Of a stretch of DNA of 20,393 nucleotides, positions 3,904-13,184 are shown one piece after another. Made by a program: the position numbers and the translations under genes. Origin of the DNA: a virus. Positions within the stretch are counted from its first letter, which is position 1, and each line of letters opens with the position of its first letter. The stretch lies in the IMG/VR virus record IMGVR_UViG_3300029448_000573, positions 1-20,393 of that record. One strand, given 5' to 3'. The notes under the pieces were generated by a model. That model was given only the letters and a program-made list of their open reading frames with translations. It did no database searches and was not told where the DNA came from.

Positions 3904-4359
3904 ATGGCATACATAGGAAATGACGTACCTGCTAACTTCCAATCTCTACCATCTGTTGTAAGATTTAATGGTACAGGTTCAGAAGACGAATTTAATTTAG
4001 GTAGAACAATATCTAATGTGCAATCAATAATTGTATCAGTAGATGGTGTTGTACAAGACAGTTCTAAGTACACTGTACCTGATGGCACAACTCTTACTTT
4101 TGGTTCAGGTGAAATACCCCCTGCAGGAACAGGTAATGTCTTTGTATACTTTCTCGGATTAGCAGCAGGAAATGTAACACCTGCACCTGAGAACAAAGGT
4201 AACTTCAAGAATGGTGGCATGTTCAGAACTAATGCACAAGCCTTAGATACAGACATAACAATACTTGCTACAGAGAACGCAAATGTTACAGGAGACCTTA
4301 CAGTTAACAGTGGTGTTACATTGACGGTAAATAGTGGTGGAAGGTTGGCAGTATTATGA
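3904..4359 (+). CDS. Tail fibre N-terminal-domain protein, MAYIG type (short)
   Basis: A 151-residue protein opening with MAYIGNDVPANFQ. It carries a fibre N-terminal beta domain of about 95 residues, including VVRFNGTGSEDEFNLGR, SIIVSVDGVVQDSSKY and GTTLTFGSGEIPPAGTGNVFVYFL. This 'DGV.Q....Yt...GTTLtF...pp.G' pattern is widely seen in phage tail fibre heads, where it is thought to anchor the fibre to the tail. The remaining roughly 55 residues are a short beta-helix-like repeat (TGDLTVNSGVTLTVNSGGRLAVL), so the protein looks like a fibre head with a stub shaft and no receptor-binding tip. Its stop overlaps the next start (ATGA at 4356-4359), which suggests coupled synthesis with the first small cassette; that neighbour could supply the tip. 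GGAG lies at 3894-3897. The gene at 6973 shares the N-terminal domain. Confidence 0.65.
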   Translation: MAYIGNDVPANFQSLPSVVRFNGTGSEDEFNLGRTISNVQSIIVSVDGVVQDSSKYTVPDGTTLTFGSGEIPPAGTGNVFVYFLGLAAGNVTPAPENKGNFKNGGMFRTNAQALDTDITILATENANVTGDLTVNSGVTLTVNSGGRLAVL

Positions 4360-4787
4360 GTAGTTTAAAAGTAGACAACATAACAGGTCGTGGTAATGCA
4401 GGTTTTACAGGTTCTGTAAAAAGTGAAGGTGGTAACACTACCACAGATTTACAACAAGGGTTGGCAAAGGCTTGGGCAGATATAGCAGCAGGAGTAGGTA
4501 GTTCCATGCCTGACAGTTTTAATTGTTCAAGTATTGACGATGATGCATCAGGTGAATGTGGAGTAAATATCGCAAGTGATATGAGTAGTGCTAATTATTC
4601 AGCACAAGTTACTATAATTTTTGGACACGCTGCAGATGATAGTAATAGCCTTAGAACTGCAACCATTGAAAGTACGGCTACTGGTGCAGTAGAATTAGAT
4701 TTTTCTTATGTAAACGGTAGTGGTCTTCATGTTGCCCAAGACCTTGAAACAGGTGCGAGTACTATAATTCACGGAGATTTAGCATGA
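4356..4787 (+). CDS. GDLA-family small fibre-tip-like protein, copy 1
   Basis: A 143-residue protein and first member of a four-gene paralogous set. Its order is: an N-terminal MSSLKVDNITG segment, as found at the heads of marine phage fibres; KSEGGNTTTDLQQGLAKAW near residues 23-41; DSFNCSSIDDDASGECGVNI and SDMSSANYSAQVTIIFG in the middle; and HGDLA at the C-terminus. The pattern 'QQGLAKaW...DSFN.SSi.D...G...v.....M....Y' is recurrent in marine phage tail regions. I read it as a compact beta-rich receptor-recognition or fibre-tip module, without known ligand. It overlaps the previous gene by ATGA and the next gene by ATGA. A GGAAGG upstream (4340-4345) may help initiation. The function is inferred only from family context. 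Confidence 0.6.
   Translation: MSSLKVDNITGRGNAGFTGSVKSEGGNTTTDLQQGLAKAWADIAAGVGSSMPDSFNCSSIDDDASGECGVNIASDMSSANYSAQVTIIFGHAADDSNSLRTATIESTATGAVELDFSYVNGSGLHVAQDLETGASTIIHGDLA
4773..4786 (+). promoter_or_regulatory. Ribosome binding site inside GDLA codons (junction 1)
   Basis: GGAGATTTAGC followed by ATG at 4784. GGAGA (4773-4777) lies 6 nt before the start of the next gene and itself encodes Gly-Asp of the terminal GDLA of the upstream protein. The stop and start overlap as ATGA. Confidence 0.7.
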
Positions 4788-5245
4788 GTACATTATCAGT
4801 AGATGCAATCACAGGTAAGTCTACCTCAACAAACATAACCATTGGCTCAACACCTGTAGTGAGTGCAAGTGCAAACTCCTTGACTATTAGAGGTGAGGGT
4901 TCAGCACAGACAAGTATTCAGCAAGGGTTATGTAAATCGTGGTGGTTTGTTACTGGAACTGGAACTGCTGTAATTACTGATTCTTTTAATGCAAGTGGAA
5001 TTGTTGATAATGGACCGGGAGATTACACAGTTTCAATAGTCAATGACATGGCTAATGCTACTTATTCAATAGGGGGTATGTGTGGGATAGCATCAAGTAC
5101 AGATGTTACATCAAGAAACGTACAACCTTTTGGTGGAGCAATATTAGCAGGAAGTTTGAGATACAACACAACAACTAATGATGCAAATGTAGACAATGAC
5201 CAAGATGGCATAAACTATATTCAAATATTTGGAGACCTCGCATAA
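4784..5245 (+). CDS. GDLA-family small fibre-tip-like protein, copy 2
   Basis: A 153-residue paralogue of its neighbours. It begins MSTLSVDAITG, then has an Ala/Ser/Thr-rich beta segment, RGEGSAQTSIQQGLCKSWW, TDSFNASGIVDNGPGDYTVSIVNDMANATYSIGG and the terminus IQIFGDLA. Shared positions with copies 1 and 4 are the QQGL-K-W block, DSFN, the Asp-Gly turn, the DM...Y block and the GDLA end. The region between about residues 100 and 145 differs from the paralogues and is where binding specificity could lie, which is an inference. Start is by ATGA overlap, with GGAGA 6 nt upstream inside the preceding gene. The stop TAA shares one base with the next ATG (TAATG). No catalytic motif is seen. Confidence 0.6.
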   Translation: MSTLSVDAITGKSTSTNITIGSTPVVSASANSLTIRGEGSAQTSIQQGLCKSWWFVTGTGTAVITDSFNASGIVDNGPGDYTVSIVNDMANATYSIGGMCGIASSTDVTSRNVQPFGGAILAGSLRYNTTTNDANVDNDQDGINYIQIFGDLA

Positions 5246-5247
5246 TG
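5231..5247 (+). promoter_or_regulatory. Ribosome binding site inside GDLA codons (junction 2)
   Basis: GGAGA at 5231-5235 is 9 nt before the ATG at 5245 and encodes the Gly-Asp of the upstream GDLA terminus. The junction reads GCATAATG, with stop TAA and ATG sharing one base. Confidence 0.65.
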
Positions 5248-5646
5248 GCAAACGGAACAATAGCATTTGATACATTATCAACAAGTGGACAGATAACAGG
5301 AACAGCTAAGTCTGTGGATACAGATTATGTTGTGAATGGTAGTGCGAAGTCATTTGAAACACACGATGGTGATTCAACAACTTTTTTAGAAAGTTTTAAT
5401 ATGTCTAGTATTACTGATGGTGATGCAGGTATATGTTCTCCAGTTTTTACTAATAACATGACTAGTAAAAACTATTTTACTGCTGCTTCAGGAGGTGCTG
5501 AAAGTACAAGTTTTAGTGCACCTCGTTCTGTGAGACATGACACATCGAGTTCAACAAGCACTTATACTTATGCAATAGTTAACTCATCTAATGGTCTTGT
5601 TGATAGAGCTTATACAACATCTTGTAATATTGGAGACCTTGCATGA
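5245..5646 (+). CDS. GDLA-family small fibre-tip-like protein, copy 3 (divergent)
   Basis: A 133-residue, most divergent member of the set. The N-terminal segment is IAFDTLSTSGQITGTAK. The QQGLAKaW block is replaced by YVVNGSAKSFETHDGD, which keeps only the Gly-x-Ala-Lys and an aromatic residue. The middle FLESFNMSSITDGDAGICSPVFTNNMTSKNYFTA aligns with the DSFN...D..G...f...M...Y pattern of the others. The C-terminus is NIGDLA. The segment between, SAPRSVRHDTSSSTSTYTYA, resembles no other copy. Membership rests on order of motifs, terminus and position rather than overall identity. TAATG overlaps at the 5' end and ATGA at the 3' end keep it in the coupled series. Confidence 0.55.
   Translation: MANGTIAFDTLSTSGQITGTAKSVDTDYVVNGSAKSFETHDGDSTTFLESFNMSSITDGDAGICSPVFTNNMTSKNYFTAASGGAESTSFSAPRSVRHDTSSSTSTYTYAIVNSSNGLVDRAYTTSCNIGDLA
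5632..5645 (+). promoter_or_regulatory. Ribosome binding site inside GDLA codons (junction 3)
   Basis: GGAGA at 5632-5636 lies 6 nt before the ATG at 5643 and encodes Gly-Asp of the upstream GDLA. The junction is GCATGA, as at junction 1. Confidence 0.7.
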
Positions 5647-6131
5647 CAATAGAAACACCAGAATTTCAAGGCACACATCTTTGGGATAGATTGTGTTGGG
5701 CAAAAGAAAAGCTAGAGCCACACAGAACAGAATACTGTGTCGTATGGGAAGACCCTGAAGAGCCTGATGCACCTGCAAAGATTACACATCCTGACCCTAA
5801 TTGGATGGCTTGTGCATTAAAGGGTGGCATACTTCCACCTGTAGAAGCCTATTGGGAACTTGCTAAAGATGAAGCCAAGCCTGACTTTGTAAAGCATACA
5901 AGAGGATACTTGTTACATAACACTAAACCTATTGAAGCTATGACAGAAGAAAGAGCAATAGAATATCTTATTATGAAAGACTTACCGAGACATGTATGGC
6001 AAGACTACGACAGAGCCAACAAACCTCGTATGCTCATTTGTACTAAATCACAACTGCCAAGCACTAGAGTATGGCGAAATGCTTGGAGAATTAATGAAGA
6101 ACTAACCATACATAATGAAAAAGCTGCTTAA
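5643..6131 (+). CDS. Trp-rich conserved phage protein with C-terminal RNAW motif
   Basis: A 162-residue acidic protein with many Trp residues, unlike its Thr/Ser-rich neighbours. The N-terminal part (FQGTHLWDRLCWAKEKLEPH, YCVVWEDPEEPDAPAKI, HPDPNWMACALKGG) looks globular alpha/beta. The middle, TEERAIEYLIMKDLPRHVWQ, is helical. Residues about 130-148 read MLICTKSQLPSTRVWRNAW. The 'lP..R.fRnAW' motif is shared with the next gene and is one I associate with marine phage proteins sometimes annotated as tail assembly chaperones. That assignment is tentative and no enzymatic motif is visible. It is coupled by ATGA to cassette copy 3 and followed after 11 nt, with AAAGGAG, by the related gene. Confidence 0.5.
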   Translation: MTIETPEFQGTHLWDRLCWAKEKLEPHRTEYCVVWEDPEEPDAPAKITHPDPNWMACALKGGILPPVEAYWELAKDEAKPDFVKHTRGYLLHNTKPIEAMTEERAIEYLIMKDLPRHVWQDYDRANKPRMLICTKSQLPSTRVWRNAWRINEELTIHNEKAA

Positions 6132-6142
6132 AGGAGAAACCA

Positions 6143-6514
6143 ATGGCAACAACAAACATAGCAGATAAAGATGGAAATCTTATTAATGCAGCAGATGCAA
6201 CTATACCATCAGATAGACATTTTAGAAATGCATGGACATTATCTGGCTCAACAATAACTGAAGATTTGACTGTAGCTAAAACTATATTCAAGGATAAGAT
6301 AAGGGAAGTAAGAAAGCCTTTATTAGAAGCTGAAGATGTAGTTTATATGAAAGCAATGGAAGCTGATGATGCAGATGCTAAAGCTGCAAGTGTAACTAAG
6401 AAGACTAATCTTAGAAATGCTCCTGCTGCAAGTGCAATCACAAATGCTTCAAGTATATCTGCACTCAAGGCTGCTTGGGATACAGATGTATTAGGTGACA
6501 GTCCATACGCATAG
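6143..6514 (+). CDS. Possible tail assembly chaperone-like protein (RNAW motif)
   Basis: A 123-residue protein. Residues about 21-32 read IPSDRHFRNAWT, followed by GSTITEDLTVAKTIFKDKIREVRKPLL and a helical Ala/Asp/Lys-rich second half with KKTNLRNAPAASAI. The order 'DR.FRnAW..dg..i..D...A..i..d.iR..R...l' then a Lys/Ala helix and 'LR..p' is familiar from small proteobacterial phage proteins, sometimes labelled tail assembly chaperone. I cannot confirm that function. A chaperone for folding or trimerising the surrounding fibres would fit its place in the fibre block. Its RNAW motif is near the N-terminus, whereas in the preceding gene it is near the C-terminus. AAAGGAG is placed about 6 nt before ATG. 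Confidence 0.5.
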   Translation: MATTNIADKDGNLINAADATIPSDRHFRNAWTLSGSTITEDLTVAKTIFKDKIREVRKPLLEAEDVVYMKAMEADDADAKAASVTKKTNLRNAPAASAITNASSISALKAAWDTDVLGDSPYA

Positions 6515-6523
6515 GAGTAACGA

Positions 6524-6973
6524 ATGGCTTTAACACAAATAAACAGAGGTGGTTTAAATACTGGAGTTTCTGATTCTAGTAATGCCACCTTTTTGACTGT
6601 TGATAGTTCTGAACAAGCAGTTATAAAATCTGAAGGTGGTGCAGCAACTACATCTGTACAACAAGGGTTGGCTAAAGTGTGGGTAGCTTTTGATACTCCA
6701 ACTACTTCCAATGGTCAAACAATAACAATGACAGATTCCTTTAACATGACATCTTCTACTGACAATGGAACAGGACAAATAATGCTTGTTTTTGCTAATG
6801 ACATGGCTAATGACGATTATGTAATTAGTATTCAAGGTGGTGAATCAAGTAATTTGGCAAGTGTTGATACTGGAACTAAAGCAACTGGACAAATAAGAAT
6901 TGAAACATTTAATGTATCCGAAACCTTAGTTAACTGCCCTACTTGTTCTGTAATTTTTGGAGATTTAGCATAA
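6524..6973 (+). CDS. GDLA-family small fibre-tip-like protein, copy 4
   Basis: A 149-residue protein, the best match to copy 1. Features in order are MALTQINRGGLNTGVSD at the start, IKSEGGAATTSVQQGLAKVW near residues 34-53, TDSFNMTSSTDNGTGQIML, FANDMANDDYVISIQGGES and the end CPTCSVIFGDLA. A pair of Cys residues near the C-terminus (CPTC) is unique to this copy. It is separated from copies 1-3 by the two RNAW genes, so either the array was interrupted or a new copy was added. The start has AGGAG (6514-6518 region) just upstream. The stop TAA shares one base with the next ATG. As in the other copies, a receptor-recognition role is inferred from context only. Confidence 0.6.
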   Translation: MALTQINRGGLNTGVSDSSNATFLTVDSSEQAVIKSEGGAATTSVQQGLAKVWVAFDTPTTSNGQTITMTDSFNMTSSTDNGTGQIMLVFANDMANDDYVISIQGGESSNLASVDTGTKATGQIRIETFNVSETLVNCPTCSVIFGDLA

Positions 6974-6975
6974 TG
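6959..6975 (+). promoter_or_regulatory. Ribosome binding site inside GDLA codons (junction 4)
   Basis: GGAGA at 6959-6963 is 9 nt before the ATG at 6973 and encodes the Gly-Asp of GDLA. The junction is GCATAATG, as at junction 2. It supports 6973 rather than the upstream in-frame ATG at 6943 as the real start. Confidence 0.7.
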
Positions 6976-7836
6976 GCATACATAGGCAAATCTCCTTCAC
7001 AGGGAGTTCGTAGTAGGTTTCAATACCAAGCTACGGCAGGTCAGTCTAGCTTCAGTAGCACTGATGCAAACGGATTGACACTTACCTACACAGATAGTTT
7101 GTACATGGATGTATATCAAAATGGTATACTACTTGTACCCGGTGATGATTACACTGCAACTACAGGCACAACTGTTGTATTAGTTCAATCTGCTAGTTTA
7201 GATGACATCATTGAGATGGTAGTCTATGATGTGTTTTCTGTACCAGATGCAGTTAGTCAGAGTGCAGGGGGTAACTTTAGTGGTGATATATCTTCAGGTG
7301 GTTTGCCTGTAAAGGTTGCTGGAAAAGAATCTATGTTTATTCCTGCTGGTGGAATGAAGCCCACAGTAAGTAACGGTTGTGCCAATCATGCTAGTGTTGA
7401 GACAACGGCAGGTAGACCTGATATGATTGTATTAGATTTTGACAAAGATTCAGATGAACATGCACAATTTCAAATATGTTTTCCAAAAAGTTATGATTTA
7501 GGTACTGTTACTTTTCAAGTTTGGTGGACTGGATTAGCTGCAACTACAGGTGTCGCTTGGGGATTACAAGGTGTAGCAGTATCAAACAATAGCACTATAG
7601 ATGTTGCGTATGGCACTGCTGTGGTCGTAACAGATAATGCTCAAGGAGCAGTTGAAGAAGTTTGTGTTACTGCTGAAAGTGGAGCAGTTACAATAGCAGG
7701 AACTCCTGCAGATGATGACATAATTTTCTTTAGGTTTTTTAGAGATGTTTCAGATGGTAATGATGATATGGCAGGAGATGCTAGATTATTAGGGATAAAA
7801 TTATTTTTTAATACAGACGCAAAGAATGATTCTTAA
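6973..7836 (+). CDS. Tail fibre / structural protein, MAYIG type (long)
   Basis: A 287-residue protein. I start it at 6973 because the product then begins MAYIGKSPSQG, the same opening as the 3904 gene, and because GGAGA lies 9 nt upstream; an extension to ATG 6943 would add ten residues read from inside the preceding gene. Residues 1-95 are the fibre N-terminal beta domain (FQYQATAGQSSFS, YMDVYQNGILLVPGDDYTAT, GTTVVLVQSASLDDIIEMVVYD). The second part, from GGLPVKVAGKESMFIPAGGM to the end, includes ETTAGRPDMIVLDFD, DEHAQFQICFPKSYDLGTVT, GVAWGLQGVAVS and EDARL-like MAGDARLLGIKLFFNTDA. This is a beta-sandwich-like module very common in marine phage tail regions and of unknown ligand. Likely a short fibre or fibre-associated protein. 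GGAGA follows its stop and serves the next gene. Confidence 0.68.
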   Translation: MAYIGKSPSQGVRSRFQYQATAGQSSFSSTDANGLTLTYTDSLYMDVYQNGILLVPGDDYTATTGTTVVLVQSASLDDIIEMVVYDVFSVPDAVSQSAGGNFSGDISSGGLPVKVAGKESMFIPAGGMKPTVSNGCANHASVETTAGRPDMIVLDFDKDSDEHAQFQICFPKSYDLGTVTFQVWWTGLAATTGVAWGLQGVAVSNNSTIDVAYGTAVVVTDNAQGAVEEVCVTAESGAVTIAGTPADDDIIFFRFFRDVSDGNDDMAGDARLLGIKLFFNTDAKNDS

Positions 7837-7848
7837 TGGAGACACTTA

Positions 7849-8775
7849 ATGAGTGGTAATTTTGGTAATTTAAGTATGACTTTTCTTCAAAGTGAAGAAA
7901 TTTGCAAAACTAATCAATTTCCAGTTGTTTCTGGTGGTAATTCTTCTACTGATGGTGATTATAAAGTACACCAATTTACCTCTTCTGGTACAGCAATTAT
8001 ACACAACGGATATGACACAACATATGGTGATGTAATGGATTTTCTAGTTATCGGTGGTGGGGGAACTGGTGGTGGAAATTTCAGAAGTGGTGGTGGAGGT
8101 GCTGGTGGATATCGTAATTCTTATGCCTCTGAAAGTTCTGGTGCTAATGCTAGTTCAGAAGCAGTGGTTCATTCAATAAACGCACATTACGATATTACAG
8201 TTGGAGCTGCTGGTGGTAGAAATTCAAATGCTGCTGGTGGTGCTGGAACTTCCAGTACTTTTGCTTCAGTAACATCTCATGGAGGTGGTGGTGGTGGAAA
8301 TTATGATTCTGCTGCCGTAGCAGGAACTTATGGTTCTGGTGGTGGTGCTGGTCATGGAAACGGAGGAGCATATAATGGTTCAGATGGAACAGCAGGACAA
8401 GGTAAAAATGGTGGGGATTCTGCAGACACAGGAAATGGAGCACAACAAGGTTCTGGAGGTGGTGGTGCAAATTCGGATGGAGCAAATGGAGGTTCTACCT
8501 CAAACGTGACAGGTGGTGGTGCTGGGTTAGCAAGTTCAATCACAGGTTCTTCTGTCACTAGAGCTGGTGGTGGTGGAGGTGGAAACTATGAAAACGGTGG
8601 AACTTCTGCTGGAGGTTCTGGAGGTGGTGGTGCTGGAGGTTCTGGGGAAAATGCTGCTGGAGTCAATGCTACTGTTGATAATTCAGGCTCTGGTGGTGGT
8701 GGTTCTGCATGGTCTGGTCAAAATGGTGGTCTTGGCATGGCAGGTCTAGTGGTAATAAGATATAAGTTTCAGTAG
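7849..8775 (+). CDS. Glycine-rich tail adhesin
   Basis: A 308-residue protein. Residues 1-65 form an N-terminal beta segment (DYKVHQFTSSGTAIIHNGYD, MDFLVIGGGG). Residues about 65-295 are dominated by runs of 3-7 Gly with Ser, Asn and Ala, broken by short non-Gly loops: HSINAHYDITVGAAGG, FASVTSHGGG, SSITGSSVTRAGGGG. The end GLGMAGLVVIRYKFQ is the usual closing strand ('G.vvIRY') of this family. Such Gly-rich proteins are known as phage tip adhesins. In Salmonella phage S16 gp38 such glycine runs form packed polyglycine-II helices with receptor-contact loops at one end; a similar sandwich is plausible here. GGAGA (7838-7842) precedes ATG by 6 nt. The other-frame and reverse openings here are low-complexity artefacts. 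Confidence 0.7.
   Translation: MSGNFGNLSMTFLQSEEICKTNQFPVVSGGNSSTDGDYKVHQFTSSGTAIIHNGYDTTYGDVMDFLVIGGGGTGGGNFRSGGGGAGGYRNSYASESSGANASSEAVVHSINAHYDITVGAAGGRNSNAAGGAGTSSTFASVTSHGGGGGGNYDSAAVAGTYGSGGGAGHGNGGAYNGSDGTAGQGKNGGDSADTGNGAQQGSGGGGANSDGANGGSTSNVTGGGAGLASSITGSSVTRAGGGGGGNYENGGTSAGGSGGGGAGGSGENAAGVNATVDNSGSGGGGSAWSGQNGGLGMAGLVVIRYKFQ
8055..8720 (+). repeat. Low-complexity GGT/GGA tract coding polyglycine
   Basis: Repeated GGT/GGA/GGTGGTGGT clusters coding Gly runs, including 8283-8299, 8454-8466, 8565-8583, 8622-8640 and 8690-8704. Near-identical runs within one gene are substrates for slippage or unequal recombination, which would add or remove whole Gly turns in frame. Confidence 0.6.
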
Positions 8776-9132: not shown

Positions 9133-10260
9133 ATGACTAAAGCAGCAGAATTAGCAAAGATGGGTGAAGTCATAACCAATTCACAGATTGGTGGGCGAAG
9201 GAATATTGTCATCAATGGTGCGATGCAGGTGGCACAGAGAAGCAGTTCAGCAGTTACAGGACTTGGTGCGAGTGCAGGATATTTTACAGTAGATAGATTT
9301 AAAATGCACTTTGCAAATACAGCAGGTCGTTTAACAATGTCACAAGAAGCCATTACAGATTTAAGTGGTTTTTCCAAAGCTATAAAACTAGATTGTACTA
9401 CAGCAGATACTTCTATTGCAGCAGGTGAACTTGCTTCAATACAAACTAGATTTGAAGGGAATGATTTACAACAATTAAAAAAGGGTACATCTGACGCAGA
9501 AAAAATAACAGTATCCTTTTATGTTAAAGGAAATGCAAGTGCTACATATACTTGCGAACTATATGACAATGATAATAGTAGACACAATGGGCAAGAGTTT
9601 TCTGTTACTACAAGTTGGACAAGAGTTGTACTTACTTTTGCAGGAGATACTACAGGTACGTTGGACAACGATAACGCTAATAGCTTTCAAATAAACTGGA
9701 ATTTACACGCAGGTAGTACATATACAGGTGGTACTTTTTCATCAAACACTTGGAATACTACAACTAATCAAAGAATAGGTGATAATCAAACATCTTTTTT
9801 TGATAGTGATGCTAGAACATTCTTTATAACAGGAGTCCAACTAGAAGTAGGCTCACAAGCCACACCATTTGAGCATAGGTCATTTGGAGAAGAATACCAG
9901 CTTTGCCAAAGATATTATCAAGAACTTACAGGCAGTGTAGATAATAGTGCTTTGGCAGACAGTCAGCAGTTTTTATTTCCTATGTTAGCTTATAATACAA
10001 CTTTAGGTCTTGGTACTGTAACTTTTACTACACCAATGAGAGCTGCCCCAGCTATAGGATATAGTGCTGTAGGACATTTTTTAAAATACTCAGCAGGTCG
10101 TGGTGACAATGTAACTGGCTTAGAATTATATGATGCAGCAGAAAATGCTACCACAAGAACGGCTTCTGTTAATGTAACTAGTGGTGATTCTGTAGCAGGA
10201 GGAGGTTTTGTAGCTACACAAAACACTGCTGCAAGATTAAATTTTGATGCAGAACTATAG
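9133..10260 (+). CDS. Tail fibre / receptor-binding protein (RRNIVINGAM type)
   Basis: A 375-residue protein. The N-terminal helix (MTKAAELAKMGEVITNSQIG) leads to GRRNIVINGAMQVAQR at residues 21-36, then YFTVDRFKMHFAN. This 'GRRNiiiNGaMqvaQRg' head is diagnostic of a large class of phage fibre and tip proteins. The central part (about residues 60-240) is a carbohydrate-binding-module-like jelly roll: AGELASIQTRFEGNDLQQLK, ITVSFYVKGNASATYTCELY, SWTRVVLTFAGDT. Residues about 230-261 read FITGVQLEVGSQATPFEHRS then the E-E-x-x-L-C-Q-R-Y-Y closing motif. A final roughly 110-residue beta domain (VDNSALADSQQ to AELend) is variable in such proteins and would carry the receptor site. AGGAG lies upstream of ATG. 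The last gene of the fibre block. Confidence 0.75.
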   Translation: MTKAAELAKMGEVITNSQIGGRRNIVINGAMQVAQRSSSAVTGLGASAGYFTVDRFKMHFANTAGRLTMSQEAITDLSGFSKAIKLDCTTADTSIAAGELASIQTRFEGNDLQQLKKGTSDAEKITVSFYVKGNASATYTCELYDNDNSRHNGQEFSVTTSWTRVVLTFAGDTTGTLDNDNANSFQINWNLHAGSTYTGGTFSSNTWNTTTNQRIGDNQTSFFDSDARTFFITGVQLEVGSQATPFEHRSFGEEYQLCQRYYQELTGSVDNSALADSQQFLFPMLAYNTTLGLGTVTFTTPMRAAPAIGYSAVGHFLKYSAGRGDNVTGLELYDAAENATTRTASVNVTSGDSVAGGGFVATQNTAARLNFDAEL

Positions 10261-12081: not shown

Positions 12082-12621
12082 ATGTGGGAATTTTTAAGTG
12101 GTGTTTGGGGTGGAATATCTAGTACAGTAGGGTCAGCCTATGATACAGTTTCAACTTTCGTAGAGGATACCTACGATGATTATTTTACAGACTATAGCAA
12201 AGATAGTATGTCTAATTATTTTACTCCAGACAGGGGATCAAGCACATCATCTGCACTAGGAGCAGCAATGGAATTTGCTGGTGGTTTTATGGAGGTTGTA
12301 TCACCTGCTGATGGTTCTCCTACTCAAATGCCTTCATCTAAGAGAAGAAGAGTATCTGCACCAAGTAGCAGAGCAAGTGCAGGTCAGTTTAACGTAAGTA
12401 AAAGTAACATGGCAAACTTACAATTTGGCTATACACCGAGAGTAAATGATGCTATAATAAAAGCAAACGCAAGTAAAGTTCCCTCTATAGAAATGGCAGT
12501 AGCACAGATGATGAACTACAAAAGTTCACGAGGTGCTACCATAAAGCTACAAGGTGCTAAACCACCGAGTGTGGCTGCCCGAACTAAAAAGCCATCATTT
12601 GCTCCTAAATACTATGGATAA
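12082..12621 (+). CDS. Small internal virion protein
   Basis: A 179-residue protein. The N-terminal 40 residues (MWEFLSGVWGGISSTVGSAY, DTVSTFVEDTYDDYFTDYSK) are aromatic and amphipathic, resembling membrane-active or capsid-interior segments of ejection proteins. The centre has a Gly/Ala/Met hydrophobic patch (LGAAMEFAGGFMEVV), a basic stretch (SSKRRRVSAPSSRASAGQFN) and a positively charged C-terminus (SRGATIKLQGAKPPSVAART, then KKPSFAPKYYG). I do not recognise a named family with certainty; marine phages often carry a small protein of this layout between the Gln/Asn-rich internal protein and the large ejection proteins. The basic tail could contact packaged DNA, which is inference. A long purine tract (AGGAAAGG) lies before ATG. 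Confidence 0.55.
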   Translation: MWEFLSGVWGGISSTVGSAYDTVSTFVEDTYDDYFTDYSKDSMSNYFTPDRGSSTSSALGAAMEFAGGFMEVVSPADGSPTQMPSSKRRRVSAPSSRASAGQFNVSKSNMANLQFGYTPRVNDAIIKANASKVPSIEMAVAQMMNYKSSRGATIKLQGAKPPSVAARTKKPSFAPKYYG

Positions 12622-12626
12622 TAATT

Positions 12627-13184
12627 ATGATAAACACTCAAAAAAGAAAAGACCTACAAGTAAATCGTTTTAACAAAGCTCCTCCCGGATGGTCTCTTAC
12701 TGAGCCTAAAGGTAAATGGGCGTGGGAAAAGCCGCCTGTAAGCTCTAGTCCTGCAAAGGCTGTTGATCTAATTATTGACAGATTAGAAACTCCCGAAGTG
12801 CGTACGCAGATGGAAAAGTTAATGGTTGCAGGGGTATCAATACAAGAGATTGTTAACGGCATTGCAATTGGTGGCTTTAGTCAAGGACAGTTTAGTCCTG
12901 ATGTAGCTGAGATAATTAAAGGACCTTTGGCAGCTTACCTTATGGGGATGGCTGCTGAAGAAGAGATACCTGTAAAAGTATACAACACACGGGATGGTTT
13001 GTATAAGATGGATGAGGGTATGAGTGATGATGACATGATGAATATTATGAAAGATAGAAACCCTGATCTGTACAAGTTTATACAATCAAAGGCAGATGAG
13101 ATTGATGCAGAGCCTGAGCCGACTGTTGAAAAAGGCTTTATAGCGATAGCTCCAGAAGAAGTATTAGAAGAAGGAAAAATATAA
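12627..13184 (+). CDS. Conserved virion-associated protein (PPGWSL type)
   Basis: A 185-residue protein opening with a conserved head: PPGWSLTEPKGKWAWEKPP at residues 19-37. This is followed by a helical domain (AKAVDLIIDRLETPEVRTQM, EKLMVAGVSIQEIVNGIAIG, FSPDVAEIIKGPLAAYLMGM) and an acidic C-terminus (DDDMMNIMKDRNPDLYKFI then EAEPEP-like EIDAEPEPTVEKGF). The 'PPGWSLT.pkGkW.WE.PP' head recurs in marine podoviruses and cyanophages beside the internal virion genes. No function has been established to my knowledge. A scaffold or structural link between the internal proteins is a reasonable guess. Only 5 nt separate it from the previous gene, with a weak GGATAA upstream. Its TAA shares one base with the next ATG, so synthesis of the 633-residue protein is probably coupled to it. 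Confidence 0.6.
   Translation: MINTQKRKDLQVNRFNKAPPGWSLTEPKGKWAWEKPPVSSSPAKAVDLIIDRLETPEVRTQMEKLMVAGVSIQEIVNGIAIGGFSQGQFSPDVAEIIKGPLAAYLMGMAAEEEIPVKVYNTRDGLYKMDEGMSDDDMMNIMKDRNPDLYKFIQSKADEIDAEPEPTVEKGFIAIAPEEVLEEGKI

Follow-up and report, generated by a model that had tools for sequence, protein, structure and literature searches.

A slot-ordered array of four GDLA genes, putative stand-alone tail-fibre tips traded as cassettes, in an HMO-2011-like marine phage

The fibre block of virus record IMGVR_UViG_3300029448_000573, a stretch of 20,393 bases (hereafter the window) that holds the structural part only, contains four small genes starting at positions 4356, 4784, 5245 and 6524 and encoding proteins of 143, 153, 133 and 149 residues, as the initial annotation had it, each with the C-terminus Gly-Asp-Leu-Ala (GDLA). 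The order of motifs described there is also borne out, DSFN or ESFN being followed by an Asp/Gly turn, a DM/NM...Y block and the terminal GDLA. The preceding QQGL-K-W segment is present in copies 1, 2 and 4, but its reported loss in copy 3 is better called degeneration, as K-x-[WF] is kept (QQGLAKAW, QQGLCKSW, VNGSAKSF and QQGLAKVW in copies 1 to 4). The four genes are indeed paralogues: all match phrog_11355, which is labelled ‘tail fiber protein’ by annotation (E 6e-7 to 9e-16), and a profile built from the four proteins recovers 314 open reading frames (ORFs), themselves included, from 80 IMG/VR viral loci and the window, so their resemblance is beyond chance. Further scans brought the family to 375 ORFs across all loci, some of which overlap, and every GDLA-ending ORF found is a member of this phrog_11355-type family. 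No convincing Pfam family was found for any of the four proteins, and a PDB sequence search gave only a chance-level match (E 0.43). Each protein consists of a slot-specific N-terminal anchor of ~34-50 residues and a hypervariable tip of ~100 residues that runs from K-x-W to GDLA.

Megablast of the whole window against phages gave no match, and tblastn with copy 4 alone reached distant phages only, HMO-2011 being the best. The fibre block is syntenic with that of Puniceispirillum phage HMO-2011, with the same gene order: fibre, structural protein, MxYIG head, GDLA genes, gp36/gp35-like genes, MALT-type gene and second MxYIG head. HMO-2011 gp36 is 70% identical to the protein encoded at 5643, and the phage has five GDLA paralogues (gp40, gp37, gp34, gp32 and gp29) with anchors closely similar to those of the window, whose virus is, judged by these genes, an HMO-2011-like marine podovirus. 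In relatives the array is an ordered series: the first MAYIG head is followed by three genes, and the second is preceded by one (MALT...) and often followed by a further three or four. Copy number, which the initial annotation had proposed to count, is 3-8 per contig in the contigs examined, where the anchor classes keep a conserved order. The four copies of the window occupy the first four slots; past the second head, different fibre-like genes replace the further slots.

Anchor and tip are decoupled. When 307 family proteins were cut at the K of K-x-W and the two parts clustered, the anchors fell into 32 classes, about ten of them common, and the tips into 273 clusters. Within the common anchor classes median identity is 61-83% for the anchor and 28-32% for the tip, and the median tip identity is 0.31 when anchors are at least 95% identical compared with 0.30 when they are unrelated; over all pairs the rank correlation of anchor and tip identity is weak (0.10). 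The set of tips turns over faster than the flanking genes, as homologues of the 5643 protein are 90-97% identical, yet the tips upstream of them are unrelated in 94% of pairs. The anchors also carry ends other than GDLA, C1q in HMO-2011 gp31 and in loci L053 and L060, and S74-type ends in L029, L030 and L074. In HMO-2011 (L085) the C1q domain of gp31 (12617-13141) sits on a slot-6-like anchor, and gp39 (9348-9833) is a slot with a different, non-GDLA fibre end, phrog_6942.

Tips have moved as whole cassettes between slots and genomes, breaking at the K-x-W codons on one side and where GDLA meets the stop on the other. Of the 30 multi-member tip clusters, 14 have members in at least two anchor classes, and in four pairs of genes a stretch of 310-321 nucleotides that begins near the K-x-W codons and ends at the stop is 93-98% identical in DNA, with unmatched 5' parts. 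Averaged over 15 cross-anchor pairs, binned DNA identity is 0.39-0.51 upstream of K-x-W, 0.82-0.89 in the tip and 0.41 directly after the stop codon; random pairs give a baseline of 0.34-0.48, but 0.66 in the final 25 nucleotides, where GDLA sits. A single contig (L054) has two related tips (80%) on two anchors. Tips of the window take part in this exchange. L089 has tip 2 fused to a MAYIG fibre head (92% DNA identity) and L090 has it on another anchor (90%), tip 3 is found on the same anchor and in the same slot in L100-L103 (93-94%) and on another anchor in L104 (71%), and the slot-2 anchor of L107 and L108 carries tip 4 (82-83%); a search for a near relative of tip 1 found none. L089 is syntenic with the window except that the three-gene array is missing, and a GDLA tip closes each of its two MAYIG heads, the homologue of the first head (3904) and that of the second (6973), which ends in the copy-2 tip and differs in its C-terminal part from the window’s protein. 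These fusions suggest that a stand-alone tip protein corresponds to the distal part of a fibre head. The earlier description of the tips as interchangeable recognition modules is upheld in its first part, since the same tip occurs on different anchors across genomes with sharp breaks at K-x-W and the stop; recognition is a role that we infer.

Both borders carry a signature in the DNA. Synonymous-codon bias is about zero at conserved motifs inside the tip (Asp61 0.00, Asn55 0.00 and Gly65 0.02 bits) and raised at the left border (Gly34, Leu35 and Ala36, 0.57-0.67 bits) and the right (Gly133, 1.52 bits; Asp, Leu and Ala 134-136, 0.54-0.68 bits). On the left, a 12-mer, GCGAAGGC[TG]TGG, is present at 51 of 97 AKAW sites in many anchor classes, compared with ~2% predicted from the product of the family’s codon frequencies. 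On the right, GGAGAY is followed by the next gene’s ATG, in or directly past the stop codon (GCATGA or GCATAATG), in 285 of 295 genes. GDLA is not a protein motif alone, as its Gly is encoded by GGA in 289 of the 295 (98%) compared with 25% elsewhere. Nor is it a mere by-product of a ribosome-binding site, as Asp is kept over Glu (295 GDLA, 4 GELA) though GAA or GAG could equally stand after GGA, and Leu persists in all six of its codons, which indicates selection on the protein too. The GDLA codons likely have a second role, providing the next gene with its ribosome-binding site and with the overlap of stop and start, and on this sequence evidence the genes of the array are probably translationally coupled. 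As a tip motif, GDLA therefore holds as a conserved protein end in all four copies, but in part it is the translation signal of the following gene.

Ordinary tail-fibre mosaicism, in which the small genes would be a fibre locus broken into pieces, with neither positional sockets nor borders of a special kind, is an unlikely account of these patterns, but one with precedent. Exchange of C-terminal fibre ends is well known and general (PMC10386132), and other C-terminal fibre parts are separate genes in the window, such as that at 9133, which corresponds to the end of phrog_4492. In mosaic fibres, however, the breakpoints lie at varied positions along the fibre (PMC10386132), whereas here they fall at two constant places, these borders are marked by codon bias, the anchor order is conserved and tips travel between slots within one genome type.

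AlphaFold2 monomer models of copies 4 and 3 (mean predicted local distance difference test, pLDDT, 79 and 79.9, respectively) show a low-confidence anchor and a mostly confident β-sandwich tip with weak stretches in the variable loops. A Foldseek search of the PDB with copy 4 gave nothing below E 0.001, but 71 predicted viral proteins were matched, several of them long tail fibres. VIA-align places the Pam1 tailspike nearest to the copy 4 tip (Z 8.1, 1.8 Å over 69 residues, a middling value), along with the phiAB6 tailspike, AP22 gp53, R-pyocin fibres and H-type lectins, and gives an overlapping list for copy 3 (Z 7.3, 2.0 Å over 70 residues, likewise middling). The different folds that would have spoken against the grouping of these genes did not appear in these two copies, both β-sandwiches with overlapping PDB neighbours. 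The structural argument rests on the agreement of independent fibre and spike entries and not on any one score. Host recognition by the tips would fit this predicted likeness to tailspike, tail-fibre and R-pyocin C-terminal domains, as well as the fibre block setting, the PHROG annotation and the hypervariability. A shared fold does not establish function, and as host binding is conjectural the products could instead be virion decoration or assembly proteins that vary by drift or for reasons other than recognition. We regard this as improbable, given the match to a tail fiber family and position in the fibre block, the sharing of slots with C1q and S74 fibre ends, the fusions to fibre heads and the fold resemblance to tailspike and tail-fibre C-terminal domains.

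The pairing of a constant N-terminal with a hypervariable C-terminal part also recalls programmed diversification by a dedicated enzyme, either a diversity-generating retroelement or invertible shufflon-like cassettes, and 3 of 9 records have a tyrosine integrase gene. Such a system is nevertheless very improbable here: reverse transcriptase (PF00078) was found in 0 of 14 records, some being fragments, and serine resolvase in 0 of 9, whole domains differ rather than single adenine-derived positions, and there are no inverted copies, each of the 314 family ORFs being on the strand of the match. That the cross-slot combinations are metagenome-assembly chimeras is an idea to which we give hardly any weight since, although the borders are short shared repeats and the data mostly metagenome contigs, no junction seen disrupts a tip or anchor frame or an overlapping start, the same combinations turn up in independent samples (L107 and L108; for the same slot, L100-L103), the DNA of partners differs by 2-29%, too much for chimeras within one sample, and cultured HMO-2011 carries the same array, one slot anchor with a C1q end.

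The features of the array are listed in Table 1. Elsewhere in the window, the genes at 7849-8775 and 9133-10260 match C-terminal parts of much longer proteins (phrog_2295 positions 564-848 of 1183, with Pfam Gly_rich_2, and phrog_4492 tail fiber positions 776-1095 of 1096, respectively), so other fibre ends are separate genes too. Between copies 3 and 4 lie genes at 5643-6131 and 6143-6514, whose position is kept in HMO-2011 (gp36 and gp35) and in L089. Their products each have a similar W/F-R-N-A-W segment, and the 6143 protein has a match to phrog_20196 (unknown) and weak ones to tail fibre assembly families; both are possibly fibre chaperones. The protein encoded at 405-1931 matches phrog_5107 ‘amidase’ (E 4e-83) but also virion structural and head-closure families, and the amidase label, which HMO-2011 gp44 shares, may have been wrongly given to a tail or connector protein.

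Table 1. Coordinates of the GDLA genes, their right borders and the flanking fibre heads in the window
Feature	Position	Strand	Description
Copy 1	4356..4787	+	Anchor residues 1-37; tip cassette 4467-4784 (K-A-W to GDLA); phrog_11355 E 1.3e-13
Copy 2	4784..5245	+	Anchor residues 1-50; tip cassette 4934-5242; phrog_11355 E 2.5e-11
Copy 3	5245..5646	+	Anchor residues 1-34, NGSAKSF replaces QQGLAKxW; tip cassette 5347-5643; phrog_11355 E 6.1e-7
Copy 4	6524..6973	+	MALT-type anchor, residues 1-50; tip cassette 6674-6970; phrog_11355 E 8.7e-16
Copy 1 right border	4773..4787	+	GGAGATTTAGCATGA; GDLA-stop, likely Shine-Dalgarno, overlapping ATG of copy 2
Copy 2 right border	5231..5247	+	GGAGACCTCGCATAATG; GDLA-stop, likely Shine-Dalgarno, overlapping ATG of copy 3
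Copy 3 right border	5632..5646	+	GGAGACCTTGCATGA; overlapping ATG of 5643 gene
Copy 4 right border	6959..6975	+	GGAGATTTAGCATAATG; overlapping ATG of 6973 fibre head
First MAYIG fibre-head protein	3904..4359	+	Tipless in the window; phrog_18673 tail fiber protein E 3.8e-26
Second MAYIG fibre-head protein	6973..7836	+	287 residues from ATG; phrog_18345 E 7.4e-9

We propose, with a probability of about 0.72, that the four genes encode stand-alone distal tail-fibre tips built as a socket and a cartridge and exchanged at two borders. The socket, the N-terminal anchor conserved in each slot, would probably set the docking position, and the cartridge, the C-terminal β-sandwich of ~100 residues between K-x-W and GDLA, would most likely bind the host surface. 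The next gene would take its ribosome-binding site and its stop/start overlap from the GGAGAY...GCA stretch that encodes GDLA. Homologous recombination at the short border handles is the likely route of exchange, because both borders share DNA across slots. The outcome would be a combinatorial set of 3-8 tips per phage, for which we infer an adaptive reason, namely that tip trading probably allows a quick change of the cells gripped.

Several observations weigh against this proposal. No phage recombinase for tip exchange was identified in the records searched, in which the YqaJ and Erf recombination genes were likewise not found. The left handle is the less secure of the two, because codon bias is also raised in the anchor region, where it can come from shared ancestry within slots. 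The annotation of Roseobacter phage CRP-1, a member of the same broader type, shows a single long fibre gene instead of an array, so the array is not essential to this phage group. The structural matches, which come from monomer models, are middling (best Z about 8).

The socket-and-cartridge proposal can tentatively be extended, at slightly less than even odds, to a modular adhesin, in which each virion would carry several different tips at once, anchored by slot and drawn from a population-wide pool of cartridges copied at two standard DNA borders, one of which would simultaneously be the end of the protein and the ribosome-binding site of the next gene. If true, such a standard-border pool would provide a concrete genetic route for host shifts of HMO-2011-type phages, which are reported among the ocean’s most abundant and whose close relatives infect SAR116 and Roseobacter RCA hosts, members of different orders (PMC6918029). 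It would also account for part of the hypervariability of the host-recognition islands known in marine phages (PMC3909814), and the tips, as small domains with clear-cut ends, would make up a large natural library for matching tip to host.

The closest known system is HMO-2011 itself, where the five paralogues belong to phrog_11355, lie in the same fibre block on similar anchors and have a GDLA that overlaps the next start, but the tips differ and gp31 and gp39 bear a C1q and another fibre end, respectively. These genes are annotated only as tail fiber proteins, and no account of their exchange was found in the open-access literature. Tail-fibre mosaicism likewise pairs a conserved N-terminal part with a C-terminal part replaced by recombination (PMC10386132), but the present family has several slots per genome, two fixed borders and exchange between slots. 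The C-terminal domains of tailspikes, tail fibres and R-pyocins (Pam1, phiAB6, AP22 gp53, R1/R2 pyocin) resemble the predicted distal β-sandwich, a likeness that is structural only and middling; they terminate a long fibre or spike, whereas the tips of the window are separate genes with a short anchor. Shufflons and invertible fibre cassettes, as in R64 pilV and phage Mu, also keep the N-terminal part constant and exchange C-terminal ends at standard borders. Unlike these, the array yielded no inverted copies or dedicated recombinase, and every cassette is an intact gene with its own anchor. No description was found in the open-access literature of stand-alone tips arrayed in multiple slots with standard borders, of a border doubling as the next gene’s translation start, or of tips moving between slots and onto heads. 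The exchange of fibre ends has long been known; what appears to be new here is its organised form, with multiple slots and standard borders.

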